A DNA stretch of 64,000 nt from Pseudobutyrivibrio ruminis AD2017 (GTDB lineage Bacteria > Bacillota > Clostridia > Lachnospirales > Lachnospiraceae). Positions 33,323-40,854 of the stretch are shown here, one piece after another (positions within the stretch are counted from its first letter, which is position 1; the number at the start of each line of letters is the position of its first letter). A model generated the notes under the pieces. The model saw nothing but the letters and a program-made list of their open reading frames with translations, was not told the DNA's origin and made no database searches. The position numbers and the translations under genes were made by a program. The stretch covers positions 310,001 through 374,000 of the forward strand of contig NZ_KE384162.1 in the NCBI RefSeq assembly GCF_000424305.1. Reading direction: 5' to 3'.

Positions 33323-33814
33323 TTAATCACATGCAAGCACAATCTGGCCTAACTTAAGTGTCTGAGGTACATCAATAACTCGCTGATTAATGCTGCCTCT
33401 CCATTTTGCCTGCAAATCTATCTTATCAATTTCAAATTCTCCGTCAACTAAAACATCCAAATAATTTATTATTTCTAGTTCTTTGACTTGCTCAAAAGTA
33501 AAGCCTGTGTAGAGCCAGACGGTCTTCCCGGGAAACCTCTCCCTAATCTCCCGGGCAAGCTCCGTCACTTCCTGTCTATTGCCAGGAAACAGTGGGTCAC
33601 CACCACTAAATGTTATACCTGATATATAGTCGCGAGATAATGACTCGTACAACTCTTCCTTTGCTGCATCGTCGAATTTGATGCCACCGTCAGGATCCCA
33701 AGTCTGAGGATTCTGACATTCCTTACAATGATGATCGCAGCCTGATACCCAAAGTACTACGCGCAAGCCATCACCATTGAGCATATCGTCTTTCGTAATA
33801 TTATGGTAATTCAT
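33323..33814 (-). CDS. nrdG: anaerobic ribonucleotide reductase activase
   Basis: Radical-SAM enzyme that installs the glycyl radical on NrdD. The 163 residues have the CX3CX2C cluster motif CDHHCKEC (about residues 25-32) and ITFSGGDPLF, the GGD SAM-binding motif. I start at ATG 33814, 10 bases after AGGGAGAG; a longer frame to 33841 would enter the intergenic stem-loop. It lies 69 bases after nrdD, an unusually large gap for this pair, filled by that stem-loop. Confidence 0.95.
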   Translation of the reverse strand: MNYHNITKDDMLNGDGLRVVLWVSGCDHHCKECQNPQTWDPDGGIKFDDAAKEELYESLSRDYISGITFSGGDPLFPGNRQEVTELAREIRERFPGKTVWLYTGFTFEQVKELEIINYLDVLVDGEFEIDKIDLQAKWRGSINQRVIDVPQTLKLGQIVLACD

Positions 33815-33837
33815 TATGTCTATTCTCTCCCTAGTCC

Positions 33838-33873
33838 GCAATTTATTACGTTAGCTTGTTAACTATAAATTGC
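33838..33873 (-). promoter_or_regulatory. stem-loop with TTAC/TA internal loop before nrdG
   Basis: GCAATTTA (33838-33845) pairs with TAAATTGC (33866-33873), the internal loop is TTAC (33846-33849) opposite TA (33864-33865), and the inner stem is GTTA with TAAC. The plus-strand 5' flank CTAGTCC next to the stem is shared with the element before der. It ends 24 bases from the nrdG ATG. Confidence 0.6.
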
Positions 33874-33883
33874 TCTTCTATAT

Positions 33884-36007
33884 TTACATTGATTTGCGGT
33901 CGGCGATTTCGGCCATTTTGGCTTCGTTTAGACGGGTGTCGCCCTTTACACGTGAATAAGATAAATATCCATTCATGCGGTCAATCTTTGTAAGATTCTT
34001 GCTGCCGCATACTGGACAAACATCCATTTCAAGCTCTTCATGTCCGCAATCGTCACAGTATGAAAGCGAAAGGTTAACGCCTTCATAAAATCCCTTATCC
34101 ATGGCACGACGAACTAAAGTCTTAACAGCTTCGCGGTTGTAGTTGATTGGATAACGAACATATTGGATTTTACCACCGTTTGAAAGCTCCCAGAAGCGTC
34201 CCTCTAAATCCTGCTTCTGGATTGGTGTAATATCCTCTGTAACATGGCAATGGAATGAATTAGATACATAAGGTCTATCCGATACATTCTCTACAAGGCC
34301 ATACTTATTTCTAAACTGTTTAATCTGTAAACCGCAAAGATTTTCAGCTGGTGTACCGTAGATAGCATAAAGATTGCCATCCTCTTCCTTAAACTGATTA
34401 ACCTTTTCGTTTATATGCTTAAGAACCTCCAGCGCGAATTCTCCATCTTCAACTAAAGATTTGCCATTGTATAGCTCCTGAAGCTCATTAAATGCAGTAA
34501 TTCCAAAGGAAGCTGTAGCTGCCTTAAGAAGTGGCTTAATCTTATCGTGGAAACCAAGATGACCACCATAGAAGCCGCCCTCGCAATATGCAAGTGGGTT
34601 TGTAGATGCACGCATCTCACCAAGGTATGCATAGGTACGAATGTGAAGCTTTCTAATCATCTCCAGATAGTAATCAAGCACCTCGTAGAAATCTCTTGAT
34701 TCCTGACGAGCTTTTGCAAGAATCATTGGAAGATGAAGTGATACTGCACCAATATTGAAACGTCCAATAAATACAGGCTCATCATTTTCATCAGCTGGCT
34801 TCATGCCGCCTCTTTCATACCATGGCGAAAGGAAGGCACGACATCCCATTGGAGAAATAACCTTGCCGTATTTTTTGTACATGCTGGCAATATAGCCTTC
34901 TCCTGTAAGTGAAAGCCAATCAGGATACATAGTCTTTCTAGAGCAATCAATACCTGCTTCAAAAACATCCTCAAGCTCTTTTCCTGGACCATGAAGATTT
35001 TCATCATAAAGGAAAACAACCTTTGGGAAAAGAACTGGCTTTTTGAAGCCTGGCTTACCCTGTCCGATTGAACGAACCTTAAGGCATGCCTTAGATGCCA
35101 TCTTTGCAAAAACGCTAGTTCCAAGTCCGATTGTAACTGTGATAAATGGATAATCACCACGGGAAGATGCAACTGTATTGAACTTGTATTCCCATCCCTG
35201 GAAGCCCTGTTCCATCTCACGCTGAACCTCAGCCATAGATACTTCTTCGGCCTTCTTCTCATCTATACCAAGTGATAAATATTTTTCGAGATATTTGTCG
35301 TATGATTTCTGAGCATATTTCTCAAGAATCTGATCTGCCTGTGGAATAGTGAAGCCACCGTACTGCTGGCTGGCAGCAGAAAGAACGATATCACCGATAA
35401 CATCAAATGCTACATCAAGGCTCTTTGGCTCGTTGTAGAATATGTTACCCATTTCAAAGCCGCCCTCAAGTACAGATTTAACATCAAACAAGCAGCAGTT
35501 CATGGTATCACGTCTGGCGTTCATATCATGAATGTAAATATATCCATCACGGATAGCCTGAATTTCTTCTGTTGTAAGGAAAAACTTTTTATAAAGCTCA
35601 CGGTTTAATTCGTTAAAAATAAGCGAGCGCTTTGTAGATACAAGAGCTGAATCTGTATTAGAATTCTCCTTATCACCGATGTACATGATATTCTGAGACT
35701 TCTTGTAAACATCATCAAGCATCTGGACGAAATCCTGCTTATAGTTACGATAGTCCCTATAAGATTTCGCAACAGCTGGATTAACACGCTCCAAAGCTCC
35801 TTCAACAATGTTGTGCATTTGTGCAATTTCAATTTTCTCAAGGCCAAGTTCCTCTACCCTTTCCTCAACAAATTGACAAATAAACTGCTCCTGCTCAGGT
35901 GTAAATTTAACTAGTACTCGGGTAGCTGATTTGCCAACTGCCTCAACAACCTTTTGTACGTTAAATGGCTCTAATGCTCCATCCTTTTTAACTACAAATC
36001 TTTCCAT
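33884..36007 (-). CDS. nrdD: class III (anaerobic) ribonucleoside-triphosphate reductase
   Basis: Oxygen-sensitive glycyl-radical enzyme making dNTPs. The 707 residues have an N-terminal ATP-cone (about 1-95, VVKKDGALEPFNVQKVV), the barrel with RRDTMNCCLFD, a four-Cys zinc site (CDDCG and CPVCG), and the C-terminal radical loop NGYL with the radical Gly near residue 680. I use ATG 36007 after CGGAGG. NrdR-like boxes and a promoter lie upstream. It supports an obligately anaerobic host, though aerobic classes could exist elsewhere. Confidence 0.97.
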   Translation of the reverse strand: MERFVVKKDGALEPFNVQKVVEAVGKSATRVLVKFTPEQEQFICQFVEERVEELGLEKIEIAQMHNIVEGALERVNPAVAKSYRDYRNYKQDFVQMLDDVYKKSQNIMYIGDKENSNTDSALVSTKRSLIFNELNRELYKKFFLTTEEIQAIRDGYIYIHDMNARRDTMNCCLFDVKSVLEGGFEMGNIFYNEPKSLDVAFDVIGDIVLSAASQQYGGFTIPQADQILEKYAQKSYDKYLEKYLSLGIDEKKAEEVSMAEVQREMEQGFQGWEYKFNTVASSRGDYPFITVTIGLGTSVFAKMASKACLKVRSIGQGKPGFKKPVLFPKVVFLYDENLHGPGKELEDVFEAGIDCSRKTMYPDWLSLTGEGYIASMYKKYGKVISPMGCRAFLSPWYERGGMKPADENDEPVFIGRFNIGAVSLHLPMILAKARQESRDFYEVLDYYLEMIRKLHIRTYAYLGEMRASTNPLAYCEGGFYGGHLGFHDKIKPLLKAATASFGITAFNELQELYNGKSLVEDGEFALEVLKHINEKVNQFKEEDGNLYAIYGTPAENLCGLQIKQFRNKYGLVENVSDRPYVSNSFHCHVTEDITPIQKQDLEGRFWELSNGGKIQYVRYPINYNREAVKTLVRRAMDKGFYEGVNLSLSYCDDCGHEELEMDVCPVCGSKNLTKIDRMNGYLSYSRVKGDTRLNEAKMAEIADRKSM

Positions 36008-36029
36008 CACAACCTCCGGGTTTTATCAA

Positions 36030-36045
36030 AAAATAACGTTATTTT
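36030..36045. repeat. perfect 16-bp palindrome in the nrdD leader
   Basis: AAAATAACGTTATTTT, self-complementary, 22 bases from the nrdD ATG. Possibly a protein-binding site or a small hairpin; no known box was recognised. Confidence 0.4.
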
Positions 36046-36057
36046 GGGTTAATATTC

Positions 36058-36139
36058 TGTCAATATCTAGTCTAATCAAAATAAAAAACTACTAGATATT
36101 GTGTTGATAGATTTATACTACCACCACATTATCTAGTAG
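36058..36139 (-). promoter_or_regulatory. three NrdR-box-like sites upstream of nrdD
   Basis: Sites at 36058-36073, 36089-36104 and 36124-36139 match the core CwAtATaTwG at 9, 9 and 8 of 10 positions. The centres of the first two are 31 bp apart, the classic NrdR tandem spacing; the third is 35 bp further and lies in the promoter spacer. This predicts repression by NrdR when dATP is plentiful. Confidence 0.75.
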
Positions 36140-36143
36140 TCAA
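36115..36143 (-). promoter_or_regulatory. promoter of nrdD-nrdG-dut
   Basis: TTGACT (36143-36138), 17-base spacer, TAGTAT (36120-36115) on the minus strand. The third NrdR box occupies the spacer. Confidence 0.65.
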
Positions 36144-36187
36144 TAGGTTCACAAACCACTAAATAAAGTTTAACAATTCAGACACAT

Positions 36188-37195
36188 TTACCACTCTAAT
36201 TCACTAGTCTCATCTTTTTTAGAACGTGTCATAAGCTCATAGCCCGCAGCCTTAACATCCATGCCATCAAATAATACTGCATTAACAATTTCTACAATTG
36301 GCATTTCAATATTATATTTATCAGCAAGCTTTTTAGCTGCCTTTGCAGAATAAACTCCTTCAACAACCATTGCAACCTTTTCCATAGCTTCATCTTTGGA
36401 CATGCCCTGTCCTATATAAAAGCCTGCCATTCTGTTACGTGAATGCATAGATGAGCAGGTAACAATAAGGTCGCCTACACCTGTAAGACCTGATAATGTC
36501 TCTGCCTGGCCTCCCATAGCAACTGCAAGTTCAGAAATCTCTTTGATACCACGGGTAATGAGCGCGGCTTTAGCATTATCTCCAAAACCAAGGCCATCTG
36601 ACATACCAGCAGCAAGTGCTATTACATTCTTAAGTGCTGCACCAACCTCAATTCCCTTAACATCAGGTGATGAATATACTCTGAAATATTTGTTCATAAA
36701 AAGGTTCTGAACAAATAGTGCTGTCTGTCTATCTTTAGAGCCTGCCACAACTAAAGTAGGCTTGAATACAACTACCTCTTCTGCATGGCTTGGACCTGAT
36801 AGAACACATATCTTCTTATCAGCTCCGAGTACATCTTCTAATATCTCTGTTTGAGTATATAAGGTATCCTCTTCAATACCCTTTGTTACAGTAATAAAAA
36901 TCTGATTTGAATTAACAAAATCTTTAACCTTTTCTGCAGTCTCTCTTGTAGCCTTTGAAGGAACTGAGAACAAAATAACATCTGCTGATTTAGCAGCAGA
37001 TTCGATGTCGGCAGTAAACTCCATAGACTCTGGAAGCTTTACGCCCTTTATTTTATCACTGGTATGGGTATCGTTCATCTGGTCTACCTGTGACTGACGA
37101 TGTGACCATACCTTTACCTCATGACCATTCTTATTAAGCATAACAGCCAGGGCAATGCCCCAGCTACCTGCACCAAGTACACTAATTCTTGCCAT
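36188..37195 (-). CDS. gpsA: glycerol-3-phosphate dehydrogenase [NAD(P)+]
   Basis: Reduces dihydroxyacetone phosphate to sn-glycerol-3-phosphate, the backbone for phospholipids. The 335 residues contain GAGSWGIALA (dinucleotide loop, residues 8-17), the catalytic Lys in AALKNVIALAAG, and the LSGLTGVGDLIVTC motif. plsY, which acylates the product, lies just upstream, so two successive steps of phospholipid synthesis are adjacent. No clear terminator separates it from the nrdD promoter region. Confidence 0.97.
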   Translation of the reverse strand: MARISVLGAGSWGIALAVMLNKNGHEVKVWSHRQSQVDQMNDTHTSDKIKGVKLPESMEFTADIESAAKSADVILFSVPSKATRETAEKVKDFVNSNQIFITVTKGIEEDTLYTQTEILEDVLGADKKICVLSGPSHAEEVVVFKPTLVVAGSKDRQTALFVQNLFMNKYFRVYSSPDVKGIEVGAALKNVIALAAGMSDGLGFGDNAKAALITRGIKEISELAVAMGGQAETLSGLTGVGDLIVTCSSMHSRNRMAGFYIGQGMSKDEAMEKVAMVVEGVYSAKAAKKLADKYNIEMPIVEIVNAVLFDGMDVKAAGYELMTRSKKDETSELEW

Positions 37196-37224
37196 AAATT
37201 ACCTCTAGTCTTTATAAAAATTAC

Positions 37225-37304
37225 GCTGGTTACGGCAACAATCTCTATATTACTACGTCGCGAGATTTGCTCCTTTAGTAATATAGAGATTGTTACCTAC
37301 CAGC
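37225..37304 (-). promoter_or_regulatory. long stem-loop with TTAC/TA internal loop before gpsA
   Basis: Outer stem GCTGG (37225-37229) with CCAGC (37300-37304), internal loop TTAC (37230-37233) opposite TA (37298-37299), two G-C pairs, one mismatch, then a perfect 19-bp stem (37237-37255 with 37276-37294) and a 20-base loop. It ends 30 bases before gpsA. Confidence 0.75.
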
Positions 37305-37315
37305 TGCCCGTTATT

Positions 37316-37975
37316 TTACGCTCTTGTCTCCGGATGAAATGAAAATTTATTTTCGTTTCCTGCTAAAAGACGACCGATGTTCGCATGATGAAGCGCAATT
37401 GAAAGTGCTGATACTATACAGCAAATAATTACAACTTCTTTAAGCTGTCCACCTGGGTACTTTTCAGATAAAAGTCCAAGGCATGCTGCAACGATTATTT
37501 CAATTGCAAACGAAAGCTCACCTATAATAGAACCAAGTGATACATATCTTGTTAAAGCAACAAGACCAATAAATACAACTGCAGGAATAGGAATTCCCAT
37601 TGGGAAAAGTGCAATAATAAAGCCTAAAGTAGATGCAACACCCTTGCCACCCTTAAAATGTAAATAACAAGGAAAATCGTGTCCAAGTACACAGCCCAAA
37701 CCTGCATATACCATATAAATGTTTACGTTTTCTACGAATCTTCCAAATGTAAGCCAAACAAAAAATACAGCTACAACACATTTAAAGCAATCCCATGCAA
37801 GTGTAATAAGACCTGCAGGAACACCTAAGTTTCTCATGGTGTTAGTAGAACCTAAGTTACCACTACCAACCTTTGTCAAATCGATGTTCTTTGATTTACC
37901 GATGAAATATCCCATCAGAACCATTCCAAAACAATACCCAATAATAAGTGCTAAAATTCTCCCCACTACAGCCAT
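37316..37975 (-). CDS. plsY: glycerol-3-phosphate acyltransferase PlsY
   Basis: Membrane enzyme that acylates the sn-1 position of glycerol-3-phosphate from acyl-phosphate. The 219 residues have about five to seven helices and the PlsY motifs VGSGNLGSTNTMRNLG (about 36-51), GHDFPCYLHFKGGKGVAST (about 100-118), and a late Asn/His region. The ATG shares its A with the der stop (TAATG), so translation is coupled. Confidence 0.95.
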   Translation of the reverse strand: MAVVGRILALIIGYCFGMVLMGYFIGKSKNIDLTKVGSGNLGSTNTMRNLGVPAGLITLAWDCFKCVVAVFFVWLTFGRFVENVNIYMVYAGLGCVLGHDFPCYLHFKGGKGVASTLGFIIALFPMGIPIPAVVFIGLVALTRYVSLGSIIGELSFAIEIIVAACLGLLSEKYPGGQLKEVVIICCIVSALSIALHHANIGRLLAGNENKFSFHPETRA

Positions 37976-39300
37976 TATTCATTTTCCTTTCTTTCTCTAA
38001 TTATAAATTTTAAAGATGTACCTTCAAAACCAAAGGCATCTCTAATTCTATTTTCAAGATAACGAACGTATGAAAAATGCATTAAGTATTTTTCGTTAAC
38101 GAAAATTACAAAAGTAGGTGGCTTAACTGCAACCTGAGTTGTGTAGAATATCTTAAGTCTCTTACCCTTATCTGTAGGTGGCTGCTGAAGTGCAACTGCC
38201 TCAGATACGATTTCATTTAGGACACCAGTTGCAACACGCATAGAGTTGTTCTCAATAACAGCATCGATAGTCTCGTAAATCTTACCAAGACGTTGACCAC
38301 TCTTAACAGAAATAAATAAAATTGTTGCATAAGGCATAAATGAAAGAATCTGGCGAATCTTTGTTTCATGCTCCTTCATAGTCTTATCATTCTTTTCAAT
38401 GGCATCCCATTTGTTTACACAAATAATTATACCCTTTCCACGTTCGTGAGCAATACCGGCAATCTTTGCATCCTGCTCTGTTACTCCTTCAGTGGCATCT
38501 ATCATAATGATAACAACATCTGCTTTTTCAACAGAAGCTACAGCTCTAACGATTGAATAACGCTCTAAGTCCTCTTTGATTTTGCTCTTACGACGAAGTC
38601 CTGCAGTATCAATGAAGATATAGTCCTTGTGATTATAGCGAACCTTTGTATCTACCGCATCACGAGTAGTACCAGCGATATCAGAAACGATAACTCGGTC
38701 CTCACCACAAAGCTTGTTAATAAGAGATGACTTTCCTACATTAGGCTTACCGATAACGGCAATCTTTGGAGTATCATCCTCTTCCTCAGCACCTGTAGGC
38801 TCTGGGAAATAGCTACATACAACATCAAGCATATCACCAAAACCAAGACGTGAAGATGCGGAAATAGCAATTGGGTCACCAATTCCCAGATTATAGAACT
38901 CATAAACATCTGCCATATCTCTTTCAAAGCTATCTACCTTGTTAACAACAAGTACTACAGGCTTATGGCTGCGTCTAAGCATATCTGCAACCTTTGAATC
39001 ACTATCCTGTAATCCCTGCTTAACATCCACAAGGAAAATAATAACATCTGCAGTATCGATGGCAATCTGAGCCTGTTCTCTCATCTGGGACAAAATGATG
39101 TCCTTTGAATCTGGTTCAATACCACCTGTATCAATCATGGTAAAATCATAGTTAAGCCATGAAATATCTGCATAAATTCTATCTCTTGTGACACCTGGTG
39201 TGTCTTTTACAATTGAAATACGCTCTCCAGCAAGTGCATTAAAAAGCGTAGATTTTCCAACATTTGGGCGGCCAACAATAGCCACAACTGGTCTTGCCAT
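37975..39300 (-). CDS. der: ribosome biogenesis GTPase Der
   Basis: Essential GTPase with two tandem G domains, acting in 50S assembly. The 441 residues show G1 motifs GRPNVGKST (about 9) and GKPNVGKSS (about 183), DTGG / DTAG switch motifs, NKVD / NKWD, and a C-terminal KH-like domain (about 350-435). Der-plsY-gpsA is a common Firmicutes order. Two long stem-loops occupy the 234 bases between the DUF512 gene and this start. Confidence 0.97.
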
Positions 39301-39325
39301 ATCTTACCTCTTTCTTTCCTAGTCC

Positions 39326-39414
39326 GTAATCAGTTACGTTCACAAGCATTATAATTCTCCGTTCAGCAGAACGCTTCTCTTGAGAATCATAATAGCTTGT
39401 GAACTACTGATTAC
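39326..39414 (-). promoter_or_regulatory. long stem-loop with TTAC/TA internal loop before der
   Basis: Outer stem GTAATCAG (39326-39333) with CTGATTAC (39407-39414), internal loop TTAC opposite TA, inner stem GTTCACAAGC (39338-39347) with GCTTGTGAAC (39395-39404), and further pairing to ATTCTC/GAGAAT, with a small apical hairpin CGTTC/GAACG. It ends 26 bases before der. Confidence 0.75.
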
Positions 39415-39433
39415 TCATCTATAAACTGTAGAA

Positions 39434-39519
39434 CAAAATCTAGTTAACAATGTATTTCAATTCTGAAGGAGACATCAGTCGACATAAGAATTCGGAATCA
39501 TTGTTAACGTGAGATTTTG
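39434..39519. promoter_or_regulatory. second long stem-loop upstream of der, inverted type
   Basis: CAAAATCT (39434-39441) with AGATTTTG (39512-39519); GTTAACAATG (39443-39452) with CATTGTTAAC (39499-39508); then two 5-bp stems, 39454-39458 and 39459-39463. The outer internal loop can be read as TA opposite GTGA, which resembles the other elements' loop on the opposite strand. It starts 15 bases past the DUF512 stop. Confidence 0.65.
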
Positions 39520-39534
39520 AACACAGCGTAAATT

Positions 39535-40854
39535 TTATCGTCCGATTATCGCGTATACGAAGTCGCGACCGTCTGATTGTACTATACGTGTTTTAACTTG
39601 TAAAGTTTCCTCAAGCTCAGAAAGGGTAATATCATCAAGAAATACTTCTTCACCGCTTCTAAGCATTGTGCAGGATAAAAGAAGATTATCTCCCAAGTTT
39701 TTATCCTTAAGCTGTTTTATTAAATCCTGTCCAGTGATTAGTCCAGAAACTGTAATTTCTTCTCCGAAGAATTCATTTGTGATTGGAACAACATCAACAG
39801 TGACTTTATTAAACTTTTCAGTAATAATATCTGCTAGCTGTCTCATGAAAGGAGCTGCAAGCTTTCCTGTTGCAATAGTAACATGACGTTTTCTCATGAA
39901 AAGCGGCTTTTTGATGTCCTCTAAAGCGTCCAAAACCTCTTCATGCAAAAGGCGAAGCATTCCAACACCATTTTCAAGCTGGATAAAACCATCATATCTA
40001 TCGGCTTCTGGAAGTGGTCTACCTGCTAAGATATACCATTCGTCAGATGCCTGAACAAAATGATTGCCGACACGTTGCATAGCAACGTCCTGCCAATGCT
40101 CAATCTGATCAATAACTTTTCCTGCTTCTTCAGCTGTATATGTTCTAAGTGGAAACAAACCATCTCTAAATTTAGTTATTCCAACTGGAACTACTGACAT
40201 AGAGCCCATTACAGGAGCAAACTGAAGCAAATCAGATATAGTTCTATCTAATTCTTCACCGTCATTTAATCCAGGACATGCAACAACCTGGGCATTCATA
40301 GGAATCTCTGCTTCATAAAGCTTACGAATCTTATCTAAAATATCACCTGCAAATCTGTTGTGCAAAAGCTTTACTCTAAGCTCTGGATTAGTAGCATGAA
40401 CAGAAATATTGATAGGCCCAAGCTTGTAGGCAATAATTCTATCTAAATCAGCCATCTTCATATTTGTGAGAGTTACATAATTACCCTGCAAAAATGAAAG
40501 TCTGGTGTCATCATCCTTGAAATACAGTGTATCTCTCATGCCAGGTGGCATTTGATCGATGAAACAAAAGGCACATTTATTTGAGCATGATTTGTAATCA
40601 TCCATAAGACCATTACAGAACATTACTCCTAAATCCTCTCCCTCTTCCTTTTCAACAAAAACTGACGAAGTAGTGCCATCCTCATGCAACAGCTCAACAG
40701 TGATATTTGCATCATCCGAATAATAATGATAATCAAAAATATCAACTAAAGTAACATCATTTATTTTTGTAATTATATCGCCAGGAAAAAGGCCTGCTCT
40801 TTCAGCTGGGCTGCCTTCCATAACACTGGCTATTTTATGACTTGAATTTAACAT
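39535..40854 (-). CDS. DUF512 PDZ / radical-SAM-like protein
   Basis: A 439-residue cytoplasmic protein with an N-terminal PDZ-like domain (about 1-75, GSPAERAGLFPGDIITKIN). Next comes a Cys-rich cluster, CSNKCAFCFIDQMPPGMR (about 93-110), of the radical-SAM type with CxxxCxxC spacing. A barrel follows with VTLTNM, SVHATNPELR and ACPGLNDG, then the DUF512 C-terminal domain. The family is common in anaerobic Firmicutes beside der; its substrate is not known. It overlaps yraN by 7 bases. The usual name in databases is a putative Fe-S/DUF512 protein. Confidence 0.88.
   Translation of the reverse strand: MLNSSHKIASVMEGSPAERAGLFPGDIITKINDVTLVDIFDYHYYSDDANITVELLHEDGTTSSVFVEKEEGEDLGVMFCNGLMDDYKSCSNKCAFCFIDQMPPGMRDTLYFKDDDTRLSFLQGNYVTLTNMKMADLDRIIAYKLGPINISVHATNPELRVKLLHNRFAGDILDKIRKLYEAEIPMNAQVVACPGLNDGEELDRTISDLLQFAPVMGSMSVVPVGITKFRDGLFPLRTYTAEEAGKVIDQIEHWQDVAMQRVGNHFVQASDEWYILAGRPLPEADRYDGFIQLENGVGMLRLLHEEVLDALEDIKKPLFMRKRHVTIATGKLAAPFMRQLADIITEKFNKVTVDVVPITNEFFGEEITVSGLITGQDLIKQLKDKNLGDNLLLSCTMLRSGEEVFLDDITLSELEETLQVKTRIVQSDGRDFVYAIIGR

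Follow-up and report, generated by a model that had tools for sequence, protein, structure and literature searches.

A candidate mobile repeat with a conserved hairpin fold between the genes of Pseudobutyrivibrio

Hairpins upstream of nrdG, gpsA and der

The window analysed here is a stretch of 64,000 nucleotides (G000:C1:310001-374000) from the 2.91-Mb draft genome of Pseudobutyrivibrio ruminis AD2017, hereafter the own genome (G000). The nearest proteins to its der product, up to 99% identical, likewise point to Pseudobutyrivibrio. Three intergenic stem-loops had been predicted in it, upstream of nrdG, gpsA and der; we identified a fourth, antisense copy paired with the der hairpin (c1 to c4; Table 1). 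The flanking genes lie on the - strand, and the hairpins are therefore read as mRNA of that strand. The three predicted structures exist at their positions and fold, as judged from the sequence and from folding z-scores on the mRNA strand (-2.09 for c1, -7.80 for c2 and -6.80 for c3). A scan of the window for a perfect outer stem of at least 5 bp, an A/GTR internal loop and a perfect inner stem of at least 4 bp (13 bp in total) recovered c1, c3 and c4, versus no structure in each of 50 dinucleotide shuffles. Copy c2 was missed because of a G-U pair at position 3 of its inner stem.

The original prediction described a common asymmetric loop of TTAC facing TA, followed by a longer inner stem. 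The common loop stands; on the mRNA strand, and with the closing U-A pair included, it is a 1x3 loop of A opposite GUA. The longer inner stem fails for c1, whose inner 4 bp are shorter than its outer stem. The gap to the start codon, given as 24-30 nt, measures 23 nt for nrdG, 29 nt for gpsA and 25 nt for der. Flanking sequences are common to the nrdG and der copies only, as had been noted, and the gpsA copy belongs to another linker class. We regard c1 as a tip-deleted copy, since the orthologous site in Pseudobutyrivibrio sp. OR37 (L285) contains a full element with the same basal stem; c1 reaches only 11.1 bits (E 3.2) with the covariance model R1 (below) alone. The name nrdG follows the original prediction and is consistent with the gene order.

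Table 1. Repeat copies, linkers and neighbouring genes, in window coordinates.
Feature	Coordinates	Strand	Remarks
Copy c1, upstream of nrdG	33838..33873	-	Internal deletion; basal stem of 9 bp and inner stem of 4 bp on either side of the A/GUA loop
3' linker GGACTAG of c1 (class i)	33831..33837	-	Read from sequence
5' linker TATAGAAGA of c1 (class i)	33874..33882	-	Read from sequence
Copy c2, plsY-gpsA gap	37225..37304, core 37229-37300	-	R1 58.8 bits
Copy c3, upstream of der	39326..39414, core 39333-39407	-	R1 94.5 bits; member of BLAST family
Copy c4, antisense, paired with c3	39434..39519, core 39440-39513	+	R1 52.5 bits; perfect-stem scan
nrdG	33323..33814, start ATG at 33814	-	Fer4_12 and Radical_SAM matches on 33323-33817
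Open reading frame (ORF), 708 aa	33884..36010	-	Presumably nrdD
gpsA	36188..37195	-	NAD_Gly3P_dh N and C domains
ORF, 219 aa	37316..37975	-	Presumably plsY
der (EngA)	37975..39300	-	Two MMR_HSR1 stretches and KH_dom-like of EngA

A repeat family confined to Pseudobutyrivibrio in our searches

The hairpins are copies of a high-copy structured repeat, which we found only in Pseudobutyrivibrio. BLAST of the der copy against the own genome returned 15 matches at E <0.01, including itself. Ten of the other 14 end within 3 bases of query positions 24 and 98, indicating that the outer stem lies outside the shared part. The covariance model R1, built from the aligned cores of these matches, identified at least 59 places in the own genome at E <= 1e-4, with cores of 72-78 bp, and matches in 28 of the 29 Pseudobutyrivibrio genomes, the own genome included; since 150 candidates were scored per genome, these copy numbers are lower bounds. 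The further copies anticipated by the original prediction thus number at least 56 beyond c2, c3 and c4. Among 25 named Pseudobutyrivibrio der loci we obtained 37 R1 rows, four of them the reverse strands of the same places.

Outside the genus, R1 gave no matches in 55 der loci from other genera. A search of 299 genomes that represent 298 genera of the family matched two, both from Pseudobutyrivibrio, and none from the 297 other genera (16 candidates scored per genome, a depth at which weak relatives could be missed). Rfam gave no match in the whole window at gathering scores and, for 33780-39560 at E up to 5, a single chance-level match elsewhere than at the hairpins. Plasmid and phage collections gave no matches to one representative copy with its flanks. 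Literature searches retrieved nothing related on palindromic repeats in Pseudobutyrivibrio, as judged by title, and no REP or GTAG hairpins of Butyrivibrio; a search for RNA motifs or riboswitches did not name Pseudobutyrivibrio among the matches listed.

Anatomy and covariation

The repeat unit spans approximately 95-100 bp, and consists of a short linker, a variable basal stem of mostly 4 bp, a core hairpin of approximately 75 bp, the other arm of the basal stem and a second short linker. From its base, the core contains the 1x3 loop, a stem of 10 bp whose middle is conserved, a second stem that is AT-rich, an inner loop and a 3-bp tip stem. The unpaired A of the 1x3 loop is present in all 57 aligned own copies and the GTA opposite it in 54, and GA faces GA in the inner loop (53/57 on each side). 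A bulged T between the two core stems is less constant (35/57). The 5' foot of the core reads GTAG in 46 of the 57 copies, with CTAG (3), ATAG (3), GTAA (2), TCAG (2) and CCAG (1) in the rest.

The pairing is retained as the sequence changes. Each of the four basal pairs is formed in 47 of the 49 operon-class copies, compared with a maximum, over 2000 shuffles, of 32 to 40 depending on position, and all four Watson-Crick types occur at every position; the position next to these pairs has A opposite G in 31/49 copies. Across 58 distinct rows, pairing in the core occupies 94.2% of cells, versus 71.4% when shuffled and 32.9-51.5% in slid controls, the latter being relevant too because the rows are related and model-aligned. 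Changes on both sides were identified in 24 of the 28 core pairs, which bears out the predicted covariation. The original prediction left a choice between a selected RNA structure and a structured repeat family, and both halves hold, given at least 59 places in the genome and pairing that is kept in the basal stem. In genome G003 likewise, 29 of the top 30 of 66 copies have a basal stem of at least 4 bp. In 40 sense copies G-U exceeds A-C by 44:7, an excess expected if this strand folds, although weakened by the model's tolerance of G-U and by the stability of G.T in DNA. A separate alignment of 48 chosen loci (A3) is without C2:308395 and c2, and has two places doubled and one row that is a reverse-strand match.

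Class i copies, for example 39326-39418 of the window (-), often have a 5' linker and 4-bp stem that read AUG-AGN-NNG-UAG, a three-codon frame closing in the UAG of the core. We considered this frame and dropped it, as it is disrupted in copies with stems of 3, 5 or 6 bp.

Genomic position and orientation

Copies usually lie either in the gap that separates the stop codon of an operon gene from the Shine-Dalgarno sequence of its successor, or at the top of a terminator-like stem, which they cap. Gene layouts were taken from a simple ORF picker, and terminator class, linker classes and filled or empty states were assigned by reading. Of the 59 own copies, 42 lie in sense between co-directional genes, 4 are antisense, 13 lie between convergent genes and none between divergent genes, this zero standing without a baseline share of divergent gene pairs in the genome. 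Three of the 13 convergent copies (C3:256728, C3:211700 and C1:687939) have operon-class linkers and may be sense copies. The 42:4 ratio of sense to antisense has a binomial p of 5e-9, nested copies counted singly. In the own genome the sense bias is genuine, if not absolute. Of the four antisense copies, three stand head-to-head with a sense copy, and the 59 places include three close inverted pairs (c3/c4, C7:73354/73508 and C3:273279/273396).

Ten own copies cap terminator-like stems between convergent genes, five on each strand. Nine of these stems measure 9-18 bp; in the remaining one, a mismatch adjoins the core. The genes downstream of the repeat encode 40 distinct proteins of mixed kinds; Pfam searches with ten identified an MMR_HSR1 GTPase, SmpB, DeoC, PyrI, PCRF, an ArsR-type HTH protein, GpsA, a radical-SAM/4Fe-4S protein, Der and HPr.

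Gain, loss, reversal and nesting at orthologous sites

Comparison of orthologous sites identified turnover of the repeat between species. The der site was readable in 27 of 29 cases, the other two being unmatched by the anchor script and left out. The c3 and c4 block is present in five genomes, has c4 truncated in G005, and is reversed as a whole in G013. A single element is present in five genomes, of which G021 has it in the other orientation, while G011 has a remnant and G008 a remnant with another unit. At the plsY-gpsA site the basal stem differs between species with its pairing kept (GCTG/CAGC versus GCTA/TAGC in L227 and L231). At smpB, the unit of G013 is turned round together with its linkers and has a different basal stem, and G023 retains no more than an apparent scar. 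The sites at which G013 carries the element reversed relative to the own genome are der (L126), smpB (L369) and cysE (L186).

Four further sites that hold own copies were compared over regions that, with the own genome included, comprise 21 cysE, 10 cmk-like, 8 PRD and 5 AraC sites; 40 were retrieved, not from every species, and in one other match set 80 of 96 matches were retrieved. At cysE, one and the same terminator stem holds the core in forward orientation (own genome) or reversed (G013); the core occurs in other stems in G015, G006 and G028, and 16 of the 21 regions show no clear core.

Copies are also nested or in tandem near prfB-type and pyrI genes, and tandem 5' halves occur. At the prfB-type site (L372, L370 and L073), the arrays of G005 and G010 fold concentrically, and that of the own genome does so in a shorter stretch, and not wholly in a longer one. 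The basal stems of the G005 array alternate between GCAA/TTGC and GCCT/AGGC, giving three matched levels and a fourth with an eroded 5' arm. Beyond the hairpins originally predicted, the analysis adds the fourth copy, the copy number, the capping of terminators, presence, absence and reversal between species, and nested arrays.

A DNA repeat retained as an mRNA hairpin, and its alternatives

We favour, if only somewhat, a repeat that spread as DNA and has been retained as an mRNA hairpin affecting intercistronic processing or stability. As far as comparison of sequences can establish them, the dispersal of the repeat, its structure kept with covariation, its sense bias, and its gain, loss, reversal and nesting are established; dispersal, gain, loss, reversal and nesting are our reason for proposing spread as DNA. 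The role in mRNA is proposed from position, sense bias and covariation, and from analogy with two known repeats, enterobacterial repetitive intergenic consensus (ERIC) sequences and Neisseria miniature insertion sequences (NEMIS), as described in excerpts of PMC2229807. The repeat would have dispersed through the genome as DNA, settling where transcripts should carry the hairpin. Within transcripts, the long hairpin would influence processing or stability between cistrons, either as the target of a double-strand RNase or by blocking exonucleases. Adjacent cistrons might then decay independently of each other, as has been reported for ERIC and NEMIS, and copies harmless to expression would be kept.

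Several results weigh against this reading. The element is absent from 13 of the 27 readable der sites, and from 11 of the 24 plsY-gpsA sites that were readable among 26 (own genome plus 25 loci), with 13 containing it. With so many orthologous sites lacking the element, it seems that none of the copies is essential by itself. Other genomes show a weaker sense bias: the top 30 of the 66 copies in G003 divide into 13 sense, 5 antisense, 11 convergent and 1 divergent, a few of the G003 convergent copies (such as L397, L410 and L412) having operon-class linkers and so possibly being sense; and 35 readable of 42 loci in relatives (the other seven, without a recognisable core, being left out) into 20 sense, 4 antisense, 10 convergent and 1 divergent. 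Moreover, the copies on G003:C1 share a strand over long blocks of the chromosome: those from approximately 1.3 to 1.83 Mb are mostly +, the remainder mostly -. Part of the sense bias could thus be a replication fork bias. The four antisense copies have a G-U to A-C ratio of 5:0 on their own strand, consistent with selection that acts on the strand of the element and not on the mRNA. Finally, we found no resident mobiliser among the Y1, RVT_1, IS110 and integron integrase families, the families covered by our searches.

The repeat might instead be selfish DNA only, its fold selected as the substrate of a transposition or recombination enzyme that reads a folded single strand, with intercistronic gaps and terminators merely tolerating insertion. 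We consider this rather unlikely, although several observations fit it: the turnover, the opposite orientations, the head-to-head pairs, the nesting, the even division of the ten terminator copies between strands, and the G-U excess in antisense copies. Moreover, relatives have another palindromic repeat in these gaps (deoC in G005, G007 and G010; era in G005, G010 and G023). Against it stands the failure of the family searches to support a mobiliser in the own genome. Y1_Tnp, the domain of REP-associated tyrosine transposases (RAYT), is absent there and present in 10 of the 29 genus genomes, and ten of the 18 places with Y1_Tnp in the genus have no R1 match better than E 0.057. RVT_1 is unmatched in the own genome, where IS110 matches above cut-off are limited to two adjoining gene pieces (G000:C3:173193-173638), one with internal stops, and one further match lies below cut-off. 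Integron integrase reaches the TIGR02249 cut-off in none of the 29 genomes, although each of them, like each of 14 controls, has weaker matches. Filled and empty pairs, read by eye, show no consistent target-site duplication, with a possible GCCA at C4:72021. The strong intergenic sense bias in the own genome also argues against it, as do basal stems that differ yet pair, a feature for which recently copied selfish DNA would have no use.

Insertion may also be guided by structure, with the folded single strand placed at the tip of any pre-existing hairpin, whether a terminator or a copy of the repeat itself. This would explain why cores lie exactly at the apex of unrelated terminator-like stems, why the PRD-type stem is without a core in G010 and with one in G005 and G013, and why the basal stems of the nested prfB arrays match level by level. 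We nevertheless think it unlikely: at the AraC site both stem and core are missing in G023 and G024, the core-less PRD stem of G010 could reflect loss, and the empty operon-class sites have no hairpin. At empty deoC sites (G023 and G024) and at C4:74526 (G024), the stop codon overlaps the Shine-Dalgarno sequence instead. For the operon class we abandoned the broader proposition that the outer stem is in every case a target hairpin already in place, since empty sites of this class are without a hairpin and linkers travel with the unit.

Less probable still is a self-correcting palindrome, in which the arms would both expand and stay complementary through template switching at hairpins, without selection on RNA. 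Such a process would account for the tip deletions (c1, and G024 at the PRD site), for the absence of the element from gdhA in G013, which fits a deletion between short direct repeats (7 of 21 gdhA loci being without an anchor), and for tandem 5' halves and nested arrays. However, correction should erase the A/GUA and GA/GA loops, and both persist at the frequencies given above (57/57 A, 54/57 GTA and 53/57 GA); nor does it predict the excess of G-U over A-C or the sense bias. A riboswitch-like regulator of nrdG, gpsA and der, responding to a metabolite or protein, has in its favour the placement directly upstream of the ribosome site, but is very improbable given the mixed downstream genes (which also make the ligand-binding role raised in the original prediction unlikely), the absence of an Rfam match at gathering scores, the many relatives whose same genes have no element, and the ten copies in terminator-like stems between convergent genes.

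Relation to known repeats

The repeat looks like a new relative of the known bacterial palindromic repeats, and not a gene-specific switch. By analogy with ERIC, repetitive extragenic palindromes (REPs) and NEMIS, it is probably a mobile repeat with a selected sense-strand fold, acting on mRNA decay or processing. Known integron attC sites have a fold conserved more than their sequence, with asymmetric unpaired bases that set orientation, and the Pseudobutyrivibrio repeat likewise combines a conserved fold with asymmetric unpaired bases. It differs from attC sites in showing no R'/R'' boxes at its ends when read by eye, in lying outside cassette arrays, and in the absence of an integron integrase above cut-off from the genus genomes.

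A close likeness, as far as the excerpted accounts go, is to GTAG-tagged REPs and the bacterial interspersed mosaic elements (BIMEs) that they form, which have GTAG at the 5' foot of the core, a high copy number and extragenic positions (PMC3733652). Such REPs lie where genes run in one direction or converge, and frequently form inverted pairs (PMC3733652). The Pseudobutyrivibrio repeat shares both settings, and has the three close inverted pairs given above among its 59 own places. Its core of 72-78 bp contrasts with a REP unit of 20-40 bp (PMC3733652). Three of the four GTAG bases are paired, and the repeat has a variable basal stem, caps terminators, nests and occurs in a genome without a Y1_Tnp match. 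We do not call it a REP because its size and the missing RAYT partner do not agree with one.

ERIC sequences, also termed intergenic repeat units (IRU), are described as long co-transcribed intercistronic hairpins with an orientation-dependent effect on mRNA stability (excerpts of PMC2229807). The present repeat is likewise a long intercistronic hairpin, its position in transcripts being suggested by gene layout. ERIC differs in its 127 bp, its 7-bp terminal inverted repeats (TIRs) and its occurrence in enterobacteria, and in a reported target-site duplication (TSD), none being consistent here (PMC2229807). The sequence relationship to ERIC was compared through Rfam only. NEMIS or Correia elements are hairpins resembling miniature inverted-repeat transposable elements (MITEs), carried in mRNA and reported as RNase III substrates in Neisseria (excerpts of PMC2229807 and PMC2649163). 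The Pseudobutyrivibrio repeat may be a MITE-like hairpin too, with predicted carriage in mRNA, and differs from the 24-bp TIR and TSD of NEMIS in having no consistent TSD (PMC2229807). It further resembles the stem-loop families of a survey of 40 genomes, whose table includes two Clostridium species among the Firmicutes, in being repeated, mostly intergenic and of a common predicted RNA fold (excerpts of PMC2267715). The portions of the repeat literature compared here make no mention of terminator capping or nested arrays, and both may be in print.

Within this general kind of repeat, the REP members are reported predominantly from Proteobacteria (PMC3733652), and a genus-wide structured repeat family in Lachnospiraceae adds to the kind as a whole. 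The filled and empty species pairs at der, deoC and gpsA make action on mRNA, as opposed to mere tolerance, testable by natural comparison.

A second palindromic repeat

We additionally identified a GC-rich palindromic repeat (GCCTTCCCC... GATGAGGG), distinct from the family described here, in the same gaps between stop codon and Shine-Dalgarno sequence and in the terminator regions of relatives, at deoC (L335, L326 and L325), era (L359, L373 and L351) and cysE (L183-L185).

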